Assembly: GCF_900109825.1 (NCBI RefSeq)
Contig: NZ_FOBL01000012.1
Location: 1-64,000, forward strand
DNA: 64,000 nucleotides
Direction of reading: 5' to 3'
Source: Alkalibacterium putridalgicola
Lineage (GTDB): Bacteria; Bacillota; Bacilli; Lactobacillales; Carnobacteriaceae_A
Both the position numbers and the translations under genes were made by a program. This document shows, piece by piece, positions 2,869 to 61,095 of this stretch (its first letter is position 1; every line of letters starts with the position of its first letter). The notes below the pieces were generated by a model that was not told the DNA's origin, did no database searches, and was given only the letters and a program-made list of their open reading frames with translations.

Positions 2869-2933
2869 ACTAGTCAGTTCTGAAGTTTTTCGATATCGTT
2901 TATTATTAAAGTATAGCACTTAGATATAGAAAA

Positions 2934-3002
2934 CAAAAACGTTTACTAATTTTACTAAAACATTTCGTAAACGCTTGCATTCTTTAGTATTTTTTATATG
3001 AT
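2934..3002 (+). promoter_or_regulatory. lacZ promoter with cre-like CcpA sites
   Basis: The -35 TTGCAT (2975-2980) and -10 TATGAT (2997-3002) are 16 bp apart. CGTAAACGCTTGCA (2966-2979) matches the cre consensus at about 12 of 14 positions and overlaps the -35 box. A second, weaker cre-like site, CAAAAACGTTTACT, lies at 2934-2947. This layout suggests carbon catabolite repression of the lacZ-ABC transporter operon. Confidence 0.6.
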
Positions 3003-3031
3003 TATTACAACAATATAAGAAAGGGGTTACA

Positions 3032-6117
<3,086 letters not shown>

Positions 6118-31645: not shown

Positions 31646-31711
31646 TTTATGAAATAACTTCTTTTATATTATCATTAAGACATAACAGCTTACTGAAAAA
31701 GGATGATGATA

Positions 31712-34396
31712 ATGGCTAAAGACAATGAGACAGAGCAAACATACTATCAATATAAAAACGAGGATGTCGTGAAGGAGTTCGATTCAGATGCAGAAGAAGG
31801 ATTAAGTTCTGATGAAGCGCAGAAGCGTCTGGAACGTGATGGACCGAATGAGATCGAGCAGGACGAGGTATCTAAGTGGACGATTCTGATCAGACAATTG
31901 AATAATGTCGTGATCTACATACTTATCGCAGCGGTGGCGCTGACTTTAGGCATGGGACATTATTCAGATGCTGTCGTTATCGGACTGGTCATCATTGCCA
32001 ATACCTTTATCGGCTACTACCAGGAAGTGAATGCTTCCAATGCATTGGAGAAAATCAAAGATATGTTGTCCACCCAGGCGACAGTTATCAGAGACGGCAA
32101 ACGTGTCGATATACCGGCCGAAGAAGTTGTGAAAGGAGATCTGGTCTATATCGAGGCCGGAGACAACATACCGGCTGATTTGCGTCTTATAGAAGCAGAG
32201 AATATGAAAGTGCAGGAATCCTCGCTGACGGGTGAATCCGGTTCGGTGAGCAAGGAAGCGGAACCTCTGGAAGGGAAAAAGTCGACGGGGGACCAGAGCA
32301 ATATGGCCTTTTCTTCGACATCTGTCACCAACGGGAACGGAACGGGCGTCGTTGTAGCAACTGCCGAAGAAACCGAGATCGGCAAAATCAGTTCGGCCGT
32401 CAGTGAACAGTCGCATCAGAAAACGCCTTTGATGAGAGAAATCGACGGGTTAGGTAAAAATATCTCGTATGTGATCCTGGGTGTCGCTGCACTGCTGTTT
32501 GCACTTGGATTCTTCATCGGCGATTATACACTGGGAGCGTTGTCGCTTGCCGTCATCACGATGATCGTCGGTTCGATCCCGGAAGGACTTCCAGCTACGA
32601 CATCCGTGGTTTTAGCTATGGGTGTCAGGACGCTGGCGAATAAAAAGAACACGATTGTCAAAACTCTGCCTGCAGCTGAAACGCTCGGTTCAGTGGATGT
32701 TATTGCGACAGACAAGACTGGCACGCTGACACGTAATGAAATGACCGTTCAGACGATCGTGACGACAGAAGACACCTATGAAGTGACCGGTGTCGGTTAT
32801 TCTCCAGAAGGAGATATTTTAAAAGACGACGAACCTGTCAATATCGATGAACTGGACGCCTTGAAGGAACTGATCCAGTCAGGCTATGAAGCCAATGAAA
32901 CGACTCTTGAACAGGAAGAAGACAAGTGGGTCATCAACGGCGAACCGACTGACGGGGCCTTCCTGACGCTGTATCAGAAAAGTCATGGAACGGAAGAATC
33001 GGACTACGAAGAAATCGACCGCATCCCTTTTGATTCAGACTACCGTTACATCGCCTCGCTTTCACAGCATAAAGAATCTGGGGATCAGAAGATCTATATC
33101 AAAGGATCGCCGGACAAGATTTTTGAAATGGCAGAAGGGTCAGATCCGGACTTTGACCTGTCACACTGGCAGGATAAAGTGGAGGAGTTGTCTTCCAAAG
33201 GGCAGCGAGTGGTTGCAGTCGGCGTGAAGCAATTGGATCAGAAGAAGGAAGATATCGATCATCCTGACATGGAAGACGGCATCACCTTCTTAGGTATCGT
33301 CGGTATCATGGACCCGCCGCGGGATGAAGTGATCGAGTCCATTAAAACCATGCGTAAAGCCGGTGTGGCAGTGAAAATGATCACTGGGGACCACCCAAGC
33401 ACAGCGAAAGCCATTGCTGAACAGCTGGGACTGGCAGAAAACGTCAAGGCGATCACCGGTCTGGAACTGGAAGAGATGAGCGAAGACGAGTTGACTGAAA
33501 AAATCAACGATTATCACGTCTTTGCCCGTACGACACCGGACAACAAACTGGAAATTGTCAAAGCTTACAAGCGCAGCGGAAAAGTCATTGCCATGGTCGG
33601 TGACGGCGTGAATGATGCACCTGCGCTGAAAACGTCCGATATCGGCGTCGCCATGGGTCAGAAAGGCACAGACGTCTCGAAAGATTCTGCGAATATGGTG
33701 CTGGCCAATGATGACTTCTCCACCATGGAAACGGCTATCCACGAAGGTCGACGCATTTATGACAACATCAAAAAGAGTATCCTGTATCTTTTGCCGACCA
33801 GTTTTGCCGAAGGGCTGATCATTGCGATCACTCTGCTGCTGCAGAACGATTTGCCGCTTCAAGCCACACAAATGCTGTGGATCAATATGGTTTCAGCCAT
33901 CACGATCCAATTTGCCTTTATATTCGAACCGGCAGAAGAGGGAACGATGGAACGGCCGCCGCGAGACACGACAAAGCCGTTTATAGGTAAGCGACAGGCT
34001 TTCGAGATTGCTTATGTCTCCATACTGATGGCGGGACTGAGCTTGCTTGCTTATAATTGGCTCACCACCTCATATGGTGTTGACCAGGCGACGGCCAGTA
34101 CGACGGTCGTGAATATCATGGTCATGAGTAAGATATTCTATCTGTTCAATATCCGTACCCGTAAACCGGCATTCTCAAAAGACTTCTTTAGTAATAAGAT
34201 GGCTTTTGTCATTATCGGAATCATGCTCGTGCTGCAGTTGATCCTGACATACGTTCCATTCATGCAGCGTTACTTCTATACTGCAGGGTTGGACCCGCTG
34301 GAATGGATGATCGCGATAGGCGTCGGGCTCATCGTCCTGATCGTTACTGAAGCAGACAAGCTGATTCGGCTGAAAGTGCTGAACAAAGACGAATAA
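31712..34396 (+). CDS. P-type cation-transporting ATPase (P2-like)
   Basis: This protein of about 894 residues has the cation-ATPase N-terminal domain, actuator loop SSLTGESGSV, TM4 motif GSIPEGLP, phosphorylation site ATDKTGTLTRNE, nucleotide-binding KGSPD, hinge MITGDHP and VGDGVNDAPAL, and C-terminal membrane helices. It resembles PMR1/SERCA-type pumps. However, the TM6 region reads NMVSAITIQFAFIFEPAEEG where classical calcium pumps have an NLVTDG-type sequence, so the ion is uncertain (calcium, sodium or another). ATG 31712 is preferred over 31703 because AAAGG lies 9 nt upstream. Confidence 0.9.
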   Translation: MAKDNETEQTYYQYKNEDVVKEFDSDAEEGLSSDEAQKRLERDGPNEIEQDEVSKWTILIRQLNNVVIYILIAAVALTLGMGHYSDAVVIGLVIIANTFIGYYQEVNASNALEKIKDMLSTQATVIRDGKRVDIPAEEVVKGDLVYIEAGDNIPADLRLIEAENMKVQESSLTGESGSVSKEAEPLEGKKSTGDQSNMAFSSTSVTNGNGTGVVVATAEETEIGKISSAVSEQSHQKTPLMREIDGLGKNISYVILGVAALLFALGFFIGDYTLGALSLAVITMIVGSIPEGLPATTSVVLAMGVRTLANKKNTIVKTLPAAETLGSVDVIATDKTGTLTRNEMTVQTIVTTEDTYEVTGVGYSPEGDILKDDEPVNIDELDALKELIQSGYEANETTLEQEEDKWVINGEPTDGAFLTLYQKSHGTEESDYEEIDRIPFDSDYRYIASLSQHKESGDQKIYIKGSPDKIFEMAEGSDPDFDLSHWQDKVEELSSKGQRVVAVGVKQLDQKKEDIDHPDMEDGITFLGIVGIMDPPRDEVIESIKTMRKAGVAVKMITGDHPSTAKAIAEQLGLAENVKAITGLELEEMSEDELTEKINDYHVFARTTPDNKLEIVKAYKRSGKVIAMVGDGVNDAPALKTSDIGVAMGQKGTDVSKDSANMVLANDDFSTMETAIHEGRRIYDNIKKSILYLLPTSFAEGLIIAITLLLQNDLPLQATQMLWINMVSAITIQFAFIFEPAEEGTMERPPRDTTKPFIGKRQAFEIAYVSILMAGLSLLAYNWLTTSYGVDQATASTTVVNIMVMSKIFYLFNIRTRKPAFSKDFFSNKMAFVIIGIMLVLQLILTYVPFMQRYFYTAGLDPLEWMIAIGVGLIVLIVTEADKLIRLKVLNKDE

Positions 34397-34409: not shown

Positions 34410-34443
34410 AGAGAGTTCGTTACTCACGAACTCTCTTTTTTTA
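34410..34443 (+). terminator. Terminator after P-type ATPase gene
   Basis: AGAGAGTTCGT (34410-34420) pairs with ACGAACTCTCT (34426-34436), followed by seven T. Confidence 0.9.
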
Positions 34444-34524
34444 CGAGATGAATGGGTATAGTTAACACGATAATCGTTTTTAAGACAACTTCGACAGTTA
34501 CAGATTAAGTTCATGCCCGTACCT

Positions 34525-34855
34525 GCCAAACTTGGCTGGTTTCGGTAGATACGTTGAAGGAGCGATATCGTATCTACCGAAGTTGGAGGAGGTTCGGTCG
34601 TTAGATTTGCTCAAGTCTTTCCTACTTACCGAAGTAGGCCAGGTTCGGTAAGTAGGTTAAATTCATTCTTTTCTATCAACCGAAGTCGGGGCAACTTCGA
34701 CGTGTACAAAAGGGATGTTATATCCTAATGACCGAACTTCCGGAACTTCGACGTGTACAACTGGGAAACCATATCCTAATGACCGAACTTCCGGAACTTC
34801 GACATGTACCAGCAAAAGAGGATCAGGAAACGACCGAACCCAATACTTTTTCGCT
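34525..34855. repeat. 51-52 bp tandem inverted-repeat array (family A, locus 1)
   Basis: There are seven units. ACCGAA half-sites start at 34576, 34628, 34679, 34731, 34782 and 34833, with a degenerate GCCAAA at 34525. The partner TTCGGT/TTCGAC starts 16 or 17 nt later (34541, 34593, 34644, 34696, 34747, 34798, 34850). Loops are 10 or 11 nt, and the distance from each TTCG to the next ACCGAA is exactly 35 nt every time. Some arms extend to 13 bp, such as CCTACTTACCGAA with TTCGGTAAGTAGG at 34621-34656. The intervening segments differ in sequence except for the similar ones around 34705-34790. There is no start codon context or cas gene. Confidence 0.85.
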
Positions 34856-34977: not shown

Positions 34978-35532
34978 ATGTTCACACAACAAATCGATGA
35001 AGTAATCGCGTTGAAACTGAAGGAATATCAGGATTCAAAAAAAGTGTTCGAGTTGATCGACGCATCTCGGGATCAGCTGCAACAGTGGATGACATGGGTG
35101 GATGAGGTGCAGTCACCGGACGATGTTGATAAAGTCACGCGCCGTCAGCTGCTGCAGTTCGTAAAAAAAGAAGCGATGCATTTCGTGGTCCTCTATAATG
35201 GCGAAGTAGCCGGAGATATCAGCCTGAAAGAGATCAACTGGTCCATTAAGTCGGCTGAGATCGGGTACTGGCTGGGCAGTGCCTATACTGGGAAAGGCAT
35301 CATGACCCGGGCTGTCAGAAGTATACTAGATTATGCCTTCGACGAACTGGGTCTGCATAAGGTGGAAATCTGGGCGGCAGAAGAAAATGTAAAAAGTCGG
35401 AGGATCCCGGAACGGCTTGGCTTTGTGCAGGAAGGCACGCGTCGGGATGATGAACTGATCGGCGGCAAGTACATCACGATGGTCATTTACGGTTTACTGG
35501 AAGATGAGTGGCACAGAGAGACAGACGAATAA
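34978..35532 (+). CDS. GNAT acetyltransferase, RimJ/RimL-like
   Basis: This 184-residue protein contains the GNAT fold of the RimL/YdaF type. EIGYWLGSAYTGKGIMTRAV supplies the acetyl-CoA pyrophosphate loop, and LHKVEIWAAEENVKSRRIPERLGFVQEGTRRD is the typical C-terminal half. In this last segment the usual Asn-x-x-S-x-x-V-x-E-K-x-G pattern has R-I-P-E-R. It probably acetylates a ribosomal protein N-terminus or a small amine; the target is unknown. A TATAAT (about 34949) lies upstream, and the gene starts about 120 bp after the repeat array. Confidence 0.88.
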   Translation: MFTQQIDEVIALKLKEYQDSKKVFELIDASRDQLQQWMTWVDEVQSPDDVDKVTRRQLLQFVKKEAMHFVVLYNGEVAGDISLKEINWSIKSAEIGYWLGSAYTGKGIMTRAVRSILDYAFDELGLHKVEIWAAEENVKSRRIPERLGFVQEGTRRDDELIGGKYITMVIYGLLEDEWHRETDE

Positions 35533-47437: not shown

Positions 47438-47474
47438 TATCCTTATAGTACTCTACGGTCAATAAATGTGATTA

Positions 47475-47680
47475 GAACAACTTTCTGGAGGGAGGAGGAG
47501 CAAAACTAGTCTTAATCCGGCTATTGGAACAACTTTCTGGAGTCATGAGAAGCAAAACTGGTTCTAATCCGTATATTGGAACAACTTTCTGGAGACATGA
47601 GGAGCAAAACCAGTCGCAATCCGGCTATTGGAACACCTTTCTGAAGACAAGAGGAGCAAAACTAGTCGCAATATCTCTTT
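47475..47680. repeat. 52-bp tandem array (family C)
   Basis: Four copies begin with GAACAACTTTCTGGAG-like sequence at 47475, 47527, 47579 and 47631, exactly 52 bp apart. Each continues with GAGGAGCAAAAC, then ACTAGTC- and ATCCGGCTATT-like segments. The copies are well conserved, unlike the other arrays. Since 52 is not a multiple of three, they do not encode a repeated protein. A lone ACCGAAC of family A follows at 47692. A CAAAACTAGTC-ATCCG-CATTGAAC fragment of the same kind occurs near 52555. Confidence 0.88.
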
Positions 47681-60363: not shown

Positions 60364-60697
60364 ATTATTTTGTGACTAACTTCGACACGTTCGGCGAGCG
60401 ATTTTTACAGTACTTACCGAACTTGACCCCTATTCGACACGTACATCGCGAAAAGGTCTCTCAACCTACCGAATATTCAGGCACTTCGGTAAGTACATGT
60501 TGAACACTACTTTTAACCTACCGAATAGATATCCCCTTCGGTAGGTACGAGTAGATCAGGGCTTTCTAACTACCGAACACCTGCCAAGTTAGGTAAGTAC
60601 GTTTCGATATGCTTGCTTAACTTACCGAAGATAAGCGACTTCGACAGGTAGGTAGTGATCAGTTCTTTCTAGTTGCTGAATAAGACAGACTTTAGAC
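60364..60697. repeat. 51-52 bp tandem inverted-repeat array (family A, locus 2)
   Basis: This array has the same architecture as 34525-34855. ACCGAA half-sites start at 60416, 60468, 60520, 60572 and 60624, with a degenerate GCTGAA at 60675 and a lost one at 60364. Partner TTCGRY/TTAGRY sites start at 60381, 60433, 60485, 60537, 60589, 60640 and 60692. The distance from partner to next ACCGAA is 35 nt in all six intervals, and loops are 10 or 11 nt. GTAC commonly follows two bases after the partner site. The loci share framework rather than whole-unit identity, so they have diverged under a spacing constraint or arose separately from one template. Confidence 0.85.
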
Positions 60698-60739: not shown

Positions 60740-61095
60740 GAAACTAGTTTGAGTAATGCTAATGAAACGTTCATTCGACGTACTCACACAGAAAAAGATT
60801 TGAATGATGCTAATGAGGCAATCATTCGACGTACTCGCACAGAAAAAGATTTGAATGATGCTAATGAGGCAATCATTCGTCGTACTCAGATCGAAAAAGG
60901 TTTGAGCAATGTCAATGAACGATCATTCGACGTACTCGCATCAAAAGTGATTTGAGCGATACCAATGAAGCATTCATTCGACGTACTCGCATCGAAAATG
61001 ATTTGAGTGATGCTAATGAAGCATTCATTAGACGTACTCACCCCAAACTGGTATTGAGCAGCACGAATGAGGCATTCCTCACACGGTCCTACGAA
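60740..61095. repeat. 50-51 bp tandem array (family B)
   Basis: Six copies carry CATTCGACGTACT (or close variants) at 60772, 60823, 60874, 60924, 60975 and 61026, spaced 51, 51, 50, 51 and 51 bp; a further diverged copy follows near 61077. Each has an inverted repeat such as GAATGAT-N12-ATCATTC. The 50-bp unit has an 11-nt loop instead of 12, so again only the loop varies. The period of 51 creates open frames with a 17-residue repeat (EAIIRRTRTEKDLNDAN), but the 50-bp unit breaks the frame in the middle, and no ribosome site precedes it. I therefore treat it as non-coding. Confidence 0.8.

Follow-up and report, generated by a model that had tools for sequence, protein, structure and literature searches.

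Twelve alternating half-sites on a 298-bp ruler: an intergenic element of Alkalibacterium and candidate phased DNA scaffold

The 2.6-Mb genome of Alkalibacterium putridalgicola, a salt- and alkali-loving lactic acid bacterium (Carnobacteriaceae), carries about 22 dispersed intergenic copies of an element whose standard form consists of twelve 12-bp half-sites resembling TTCGRYANKTAG, alternating in orientation over a total of 298 bp and separated by spacers of 17-10-17-11-17-10-17-11-17-10-17. At orthologous loci the exact half-site count and the helical pitch persist although the sequence is lost, and this clearly bears the mark of selection acting on the geometry of the DNA. The best explanation, to which about an even chance is assigned, is a helically phased DNA scaffold (five turns per unit) for a putative multimeric DNA-binding protein; the phased scaffold is the firmer part of this proposal, firmer than its function. 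Few dispersed DNA sites are known to influence the shape of bacterial chromosomes, and most of them are short. No description of the element was found in the literature under open-licence coverage, which is weak evidence because that coverage is partial. The window referred to below is the whole stretch of DNA analysed, 64,000 nucleotides of contig NZ_FOBL01000012.1; loci and genomes are designated by L and G numbers.

Design of the element

A minus half-site and the plus half-site after it form an inverted pair of 34 or 35 bp (12-10-12 or 12-11-12), and the centres of these pairs are spaced alternately 51 or 52 bp apart. The half-site TTCGRYANKTAG is itself asymmetric and no palindrome. A genome-wide pattern search, proposed in a preliminary description of the window locus, gave 57 matches to ACCGAA-N10/11-TTCG-N31-ACCGAA and none to the reversed pattern, which excludes chance. 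Arrays were chained with a 12-mer weight matrix (PWM), permitting spacers of 15–19 and loops of 8–13 and penalising uncommon values. Exactly 12 half-sites were present in 29 of 49 chained arrays from the first set of loci. The plus–minus spacer was 17 in 268 of 273 cases, the minus–plus loop was 10 (134 cases) or 11 (101) and nothing else, and neighbouring loops alternated between 10 and 11 in 170 of 186 pairs and repeated in 16, these spacing counts being slightly favoured by the penalty on uncommon values. A scan by geometry only, with no sequence input, recovered the same elements, with TTCG as their core. Between elements, spacer identity has a median of 0.31; the paralogous copies L028 and L030, at 0.55, lie well over this background. 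In L044, L069, L276 and L277 the element is built of three near-identical 103-bp repeats and still ends at 12 boxes, which argues that the box count itself matters.

Inverted pairs with at most one mismatch number 80 in the genome (48 + 32), every one inside an array (C31 and C54 included); no isolated pair was found outside the arrays anywhere in the genome at this threshold. The elements are thus not an operator regulon. Operators of a transcription factor would account for the conserved half-sites, and the type B boxes (TTCGACA) match the Spo0A box; besides lacking single inverted pairs outside arrays, though, the genome has its elements at gene ends and not at promoters, and none of the 12 Alkalibacterium genomes searched encodes a Spo0A_C domain (PF08769). 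On this last ground Spo0A was rejected as the cognate protein, and operators in general are very improbable.

Two elements of the same orientation lie 1.2 kb apart on either side of one 314-aa reading frame (L030, 3083–3380 and 4582–4879). Small inverted repeats, GAAACTGGC/GCCAGTTTC and ATACGCGC/GCGCGTAT, adjoin several elements (L028, about 2960–3080; L030, about 2925–3010 and 4950–4980) and may be a separate repeat family.

The window locus

The element of the window locus is a seven-unit form with spacers, by PWM chaining, of 17-10-17-11-17-10-17-11-17-10-17-10-17 (Table 1). Seven units had been described beforehand; ACCGAA is exact in six copies, not in seven. The extent given for the array was right in its coordinates but began too late, the degenerate first pair (34490, 34519) having been overlooked, as had the fixed design of 12 half-sites in 298 bp. 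The 35-nt step reported from TTCG to the next ACCGAA is exact in six of six intervals, at positions that were all listed correctly.

Table 1. Features of the window at and around the element, and the second family member
Feature	Position	Strand	Sequence or remark	Method
Whole element, 7-unit form	34490..34838	.	14 alternating half-sites	PWM chaining
Half-site 1	34490..34501	+	TTCGACAGTTAC	
Half-site 2	34519..34530	-	degenerate; + strand reads GTACCTGCCAAA	
Half-site 3	34541..34552	+	TTCGGTAGATAC	
Half-site 4	34570..34581	-	+ strand reads GTATCTACCGAA	
Half-site 5	34593..34604	+	TTCGGTCGTTAG	
Half-site 6	34622..34633	-	+ strand reads CTACTTACCGAA	
Half-site 7	34644..34655	+	TTCGGTAAGTAG	
Half-site 8	34673..34684	-	+ strand reads CTATCAACCGAA	
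Half-site 9	34696..34707	+	TTCGACGTGTAC	
Half-site 10	34725..34736	-	+ strand reads CTAATGACCGAA	
Half-site 11	34747..34758	+	TTCGACGTGTAC; unit almost the same as the preceding unit	
Half-site 12	34776..34787	-	+ strand reads CTAATGACCGAA	
Half-site 13	34798..34809	+	TTCGACATGTAC	
Half-site 14	34827..34838	-	+ strand reads GAAACGACCGAA	
Likely terminator of upstream gene	34411..34442	+	inverted repeat GAGAGTTCGT-TACTC-ACGAACTCTC, then T7	simple scan
Flanking gene	31703..34396	+	cation-transporting P-type ATPase, 897 aa	
Flanking gene	34978..35532	+	GNAT-type acetyltransferase, 184 aa	
Second family member	60381..60680	.	12 half-sites	PWM chaining

Half-sites 6 and 7 form a perfect 12-10-12 inverted repeat. 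Tandem Repeats Finder detects only 2.3 similar copies in the array (34693–34809), so that most of its units have just boxes and spacing in common. The same program puts the likeness of the last two units at 89%, and because of this the seventh is probably a recent duplication. The likely terminator of the upstream gene points into the element; it came from the simple scan, and a separate terminator scan found none at this locus. The second family member has spacers of 17-11-17-11-17-11-17-11-17-10-17.

Two further arrays lie in the window. One (47471–47672) is an intergenic tandem array of 52-bp period and 3.9 copies, with unrelated sequence (GGAACAACTTTCTGGAG...) and without clear inverted half-sites. 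The other (60748–61090) has a 51/52-bp period (TCATTCGACGTACTC...) and adjoins the second element; an 81-aa reading frame that overlaps it is probably no gene.

Conservation between species

Named carriers of the element are Alkalibacterium subtropicum, A. sp. 20, A. kapii, an Alkalibacterium MAG and Marinilactibacillus piezotolerans. Among 148 genomes, the host's own and those of relatives, pattern matches were confined to six Alkalibacterium genomes (own included) and one genome of a neighbouring genus; six of the 12 Alkalibacterium genomes examined gave no match. The genomes that bear the element are G000, G001, G003, G004, G007, G010 and G021, and G002, G005, G006, G008, G009 and G011 are relatives free of it. 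Elements occupy orthologous loci in L015/L041/L044, L020/L052/L053/L079 (L079 being from Marinilactibacillus), L025/L046/L064 (downstream of mnmG), L028/L073 and L019/L086, where they stay at 298 bp even at element identities down to 0.54. In the seven orthologue pairs with both members at 298 bp, boxes differ at 147 of 1008 positions (14.6%) as against 495 of 1078 for spacers (45.9%, p = 3e-56); these pairs contain zero indels, and the adjacent 60 bp are often gapped in alignment. TTCG and T10 of the box are nearly invariant in them. Spacer sequences are near random between species and constant in length.

Selection on spacing, and a protein binding one face of the DNA, had both been suggested for the window array, and the constant 298 bp of orthologous elements with diverged spacers speaks for each. 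The preliminary description had also considered that the array might be unique to the strain, drift in linker length among relatives or stem from one recent minisatellite expansion. For the family as a whole none of these applies: other species carry the element, its linkers keep their length, and an expansion can be named solely for the last unit of the window locus.

The design is not without variation. In G007, another Alkalibacterium, the half-site has another consensus (TTCG, then GAC, ACC or ACA), and five of six elements keep the same 12-box ruler as the standard; its locus downstream of mnmG is empty. The Marinilactibacillus locus has 24 half-sites and resembles two tandem elements, while A. 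kapii, G010 and the window locus show variation in the number of units and the length of the loops. An ordinary minisatellite, recently amplified in tandem and functionless, would explain the probable duplicate at the end of the window array and the homogenised loci (A. kapii mnmG, Rossellomorea, L276 of G007). Against it, most elements have units with no relation to one another beyond the boxes, although species agree in the number and spacing of these, and for the whole family it is contradicted by the conserved length at orthologous loci; as a general account it is highly improbable.

At its mnmG locus A. kapii (G001) has an array homogenised to 7 near-identical units (L132, 951–1299); the orthologous elements of G000, G003 and G004 are diverged, unlike that of A. 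kapii. Genomes without the TTCG element have other 52-bp arrays at the mnmG-linked position (L134/L103 in G005; L144, 1149–1405, in G014).

Position among genes

All elements examined are intergenic. With a minimum of 120 aa for the reading frames on both sides (n = 34), the flanking genes are co-directional in 23 cases, convergent in 11 and divergent in none; if a quarter were expected to be divergent, a result of 0 in 34 would have a probability of about 6e-5. By the simple scan, terminators aim into the element on 24 of 45 gene-end sides and on 1 of 23 gene-start sides. The orientation of the element relative to neighbouring genes is not fixed. The neighbours are varied and largely housekeeping, with no common theme; they include P-type ATPases, pheT, mnmG, dnaN, superoxide dismutase, gluconokinase and a MATE transporter, and no partition genes were present among the flanking genes examined.

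Protein-bound DNA or structured RNA

The base after the box is almost never T and the mirror position almost never A, and the loop centres are GC-rich. These constraints are near strand-symmetric, as expected for a protein on double-stranded DNA. The alternative is a structured RNA, in which the element would be transcribed as a string of hairpins, as the preliminary description had also allowed, or as one branched RNA. Single-strand folds are indeed stabler than shuffles on both strands (z -3.1 to -4.9), but alternating inverted boxes give such stability anyway. The central helix is 95% paired, and most of the pairs that vary in it do so by compensatory change; in one clade this covariation of the central pair reaches even degenerate positions.

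This signal does not extend along the element. When box complementarity was compared with permutation, the central pair reached z = 6.6 and the 10/11 pair z = 3.4, the others 2.2 or less. Four of the five minus–plus helices pair at 69–83%, and plus-17-minus helices pair at 76.3% as against 76.5% in shuffles; apart from the central pair, complementarity between arms does not exceed that of shuffled boxes. No special central-helix signal was seen in G007, so that the signal belongs to a single clade. Covariation confined mainly to one pair in one clade speaks against hairpins strung along an RNA, and it likewise counts against a single RNA in which every hairpin would be paired. The variable orientation, the many elements beyond terminators, the lack of any Rfam match over the window and of any promoter found by scan at the window locus also weigh against RNA, which is distinctly unlikely.

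Comparison with known systems

BIMEs consist of alternating inverted motifs with two fixed-length linker classes; they are extragenic, lie at gene 3' ends and are not known to occur between divergent genes. The Alkalibacterium element shares these traits with E. coli BIME-2/REP clusters, having alternating inverted intergenic motifs and fixed linker lengths. REP motifs, however, are imperfect palindromes, whereas the Alkalibacterium motif is an asymmetric half-site; the linker sequence is conserved in BIMEs and REPINs but not here (median identity 0.31); and unlike BIME-2, the standard form has 12 half-sites and needs no RAYT transposase. In Pseudomonas REPIN clusters, which are accompanied by a RAYT, the likeness lies in tandem inverted motif pairs that are dispersed intergenically. 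A family of this kind, a short palindromic repeat spread by a transposase and persisting semi-selfishly, would explain the alternating motifs, the two linker lengths, the 3' intergenic position, the raised spacer identity of the L028/L030 paralogues and the empty site in G007. Yet the RAYT Y1 domain (PF01797) has no match in the element-bearing genomes G001, G003, G007 and G010, for which reason the Y1 transposase was rejected as the cognate protein; the elements are old at their loci, with their structure kept after insertion, and the half-site is no palindrome. Such an origin is unlikely.

The centromere of the F plasmid, sopC, comprises 12 tandem 43-bp units with one inverted pair each. Common to both are tandem units near integral helical turns and one dimer-bound inverted pair per unit, the binding being putative in Alkalibacterium. 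But sopC/parS is a single locus beside a ParA/ParB-type operon, as opposed to about 22 dispersed chromosomal copies beside varied genes, and Alkalibacterium units measure 51/52 bp, not 43, and have unrelated spacer sequences. Bacterial minisatellites (VNTR) likewise have tandem units of constant length, as in the homogenised forms of A. kapii and Bacillaceae; theirs are recent and near-identical, whereas in most Alkalibacterium elements the units have no more than half-sites and spacing in common. CRISPR arrays also alternate repeats with variable spacers of constant length, but their repeats are identical and direct; the Alkalibacterium boxes vary and alternate in orientation, the units are short, and other species have the elements at orthologous loci. 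Under the best explanation, the element would work in the way of BIMEs in E. coli or of sopC and belong to neither family.

Related arrays in other Bacilli

The pattern TTCG-N33-CGAA-N10/11 has 73, 66 and 40 matches in three other Bacilli genomes, with a control near 0, and the same TTCG geometry occurs in Rossellomorea vietnamensis; arrays in these genomes are mostly homogenised, with a 52-bp pitch. Most intergenic tandem arrays there and in the Alkalibacterium family, of any sequence, have a period of 51–52 or 40–42 bp (loci L179–L192, L233–L272 in G381, G275 and G237, and L159–L178 in G014), in contrast with 20 other Bacilli sampled, a bias to be taken as a lead, not as a rule, because the sample is small and some genomes were picked for TTCG arrays.

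Arrays of 51–52 bp make up 16 of 22 in G381 and 6 of 8 in G237, and 40–42 bp arrays occur in G014 and G381; these periods correspond to five and four helical turns, in unrelated sequences that often have one inverted pair per unit. G381 has a second multi-locus half-site family, TATTGGYGMCC, at 52-bp pitch (L181, 16245–17201; L183, 16547–16746; L236; L237), and several more (TTTAATAGACATTTC, TTGACAGCTTTG) with partly common sequence. A two-unit sequence in two Paraliobacillus species (L048 and L066) has a CTAATGACCGAA-like box and the standard geometry, and may be a remnant or chance. Matches in Bacillus sp. HNG and Scopulibacillus were rejected as plain direct repeats of 51/52 bp. The architecture scan listed no arrays in Afipia, Williamsia, Pseudomonas and others with pattern matches; a viral_contigs search gave no match; and an any-4-mer scan of the standard geometry over 200 kb of G002 and 130 kb of G005 returned no element and one direct-repeat array.

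Model and implications

The element is proposed to act as a double-stranded DNA scaffold, in which a putative dimeric DNA-binding protein would sit on each 34/35-bp inverted pair. The pitch averages about 51.5 bp, equal to five turns of 10.3 bp, so that all dimers would share one face of the DNA. The alternation of 10 and 11 in the loops would hold the helical phase along the whole element, and the six units would give one ordered nucleoprotein complex. Its role can be guessed at by analogy with BIMEs and sopC, and may lie in organising the chromosome or in forming a barrier, topological or transcriptional, at the 3' ends of genes. Several observations speak against such a scaffold: covariation of the central pair at degenerate positions, which plain protein binding leaves unexplained; fold stability over shuffles; variation in unit number and loop length; the empty mnmG locus of G007; and the six genus members without a match.

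A bolder and more tentative view, rather doubtful as it stands, is that of a discrete architectural element whose twelve half-sites and 298-bp helical ruler function only as a whole; half-site and cognate protein would drift and the ruler be kept, as one case of a wider class of 4- and 5-turn phased arrays in Bacilli, a dedicated chromatin module. The element is a direct handle for finding a large DNA-wrapping or DNA-bridging protein in Bacilli, by affinity purification and spacing mutants, and the recurrence of 51–52 and 40–42 bp pitches in unrelated intergenic arrays may hint at a general rule.
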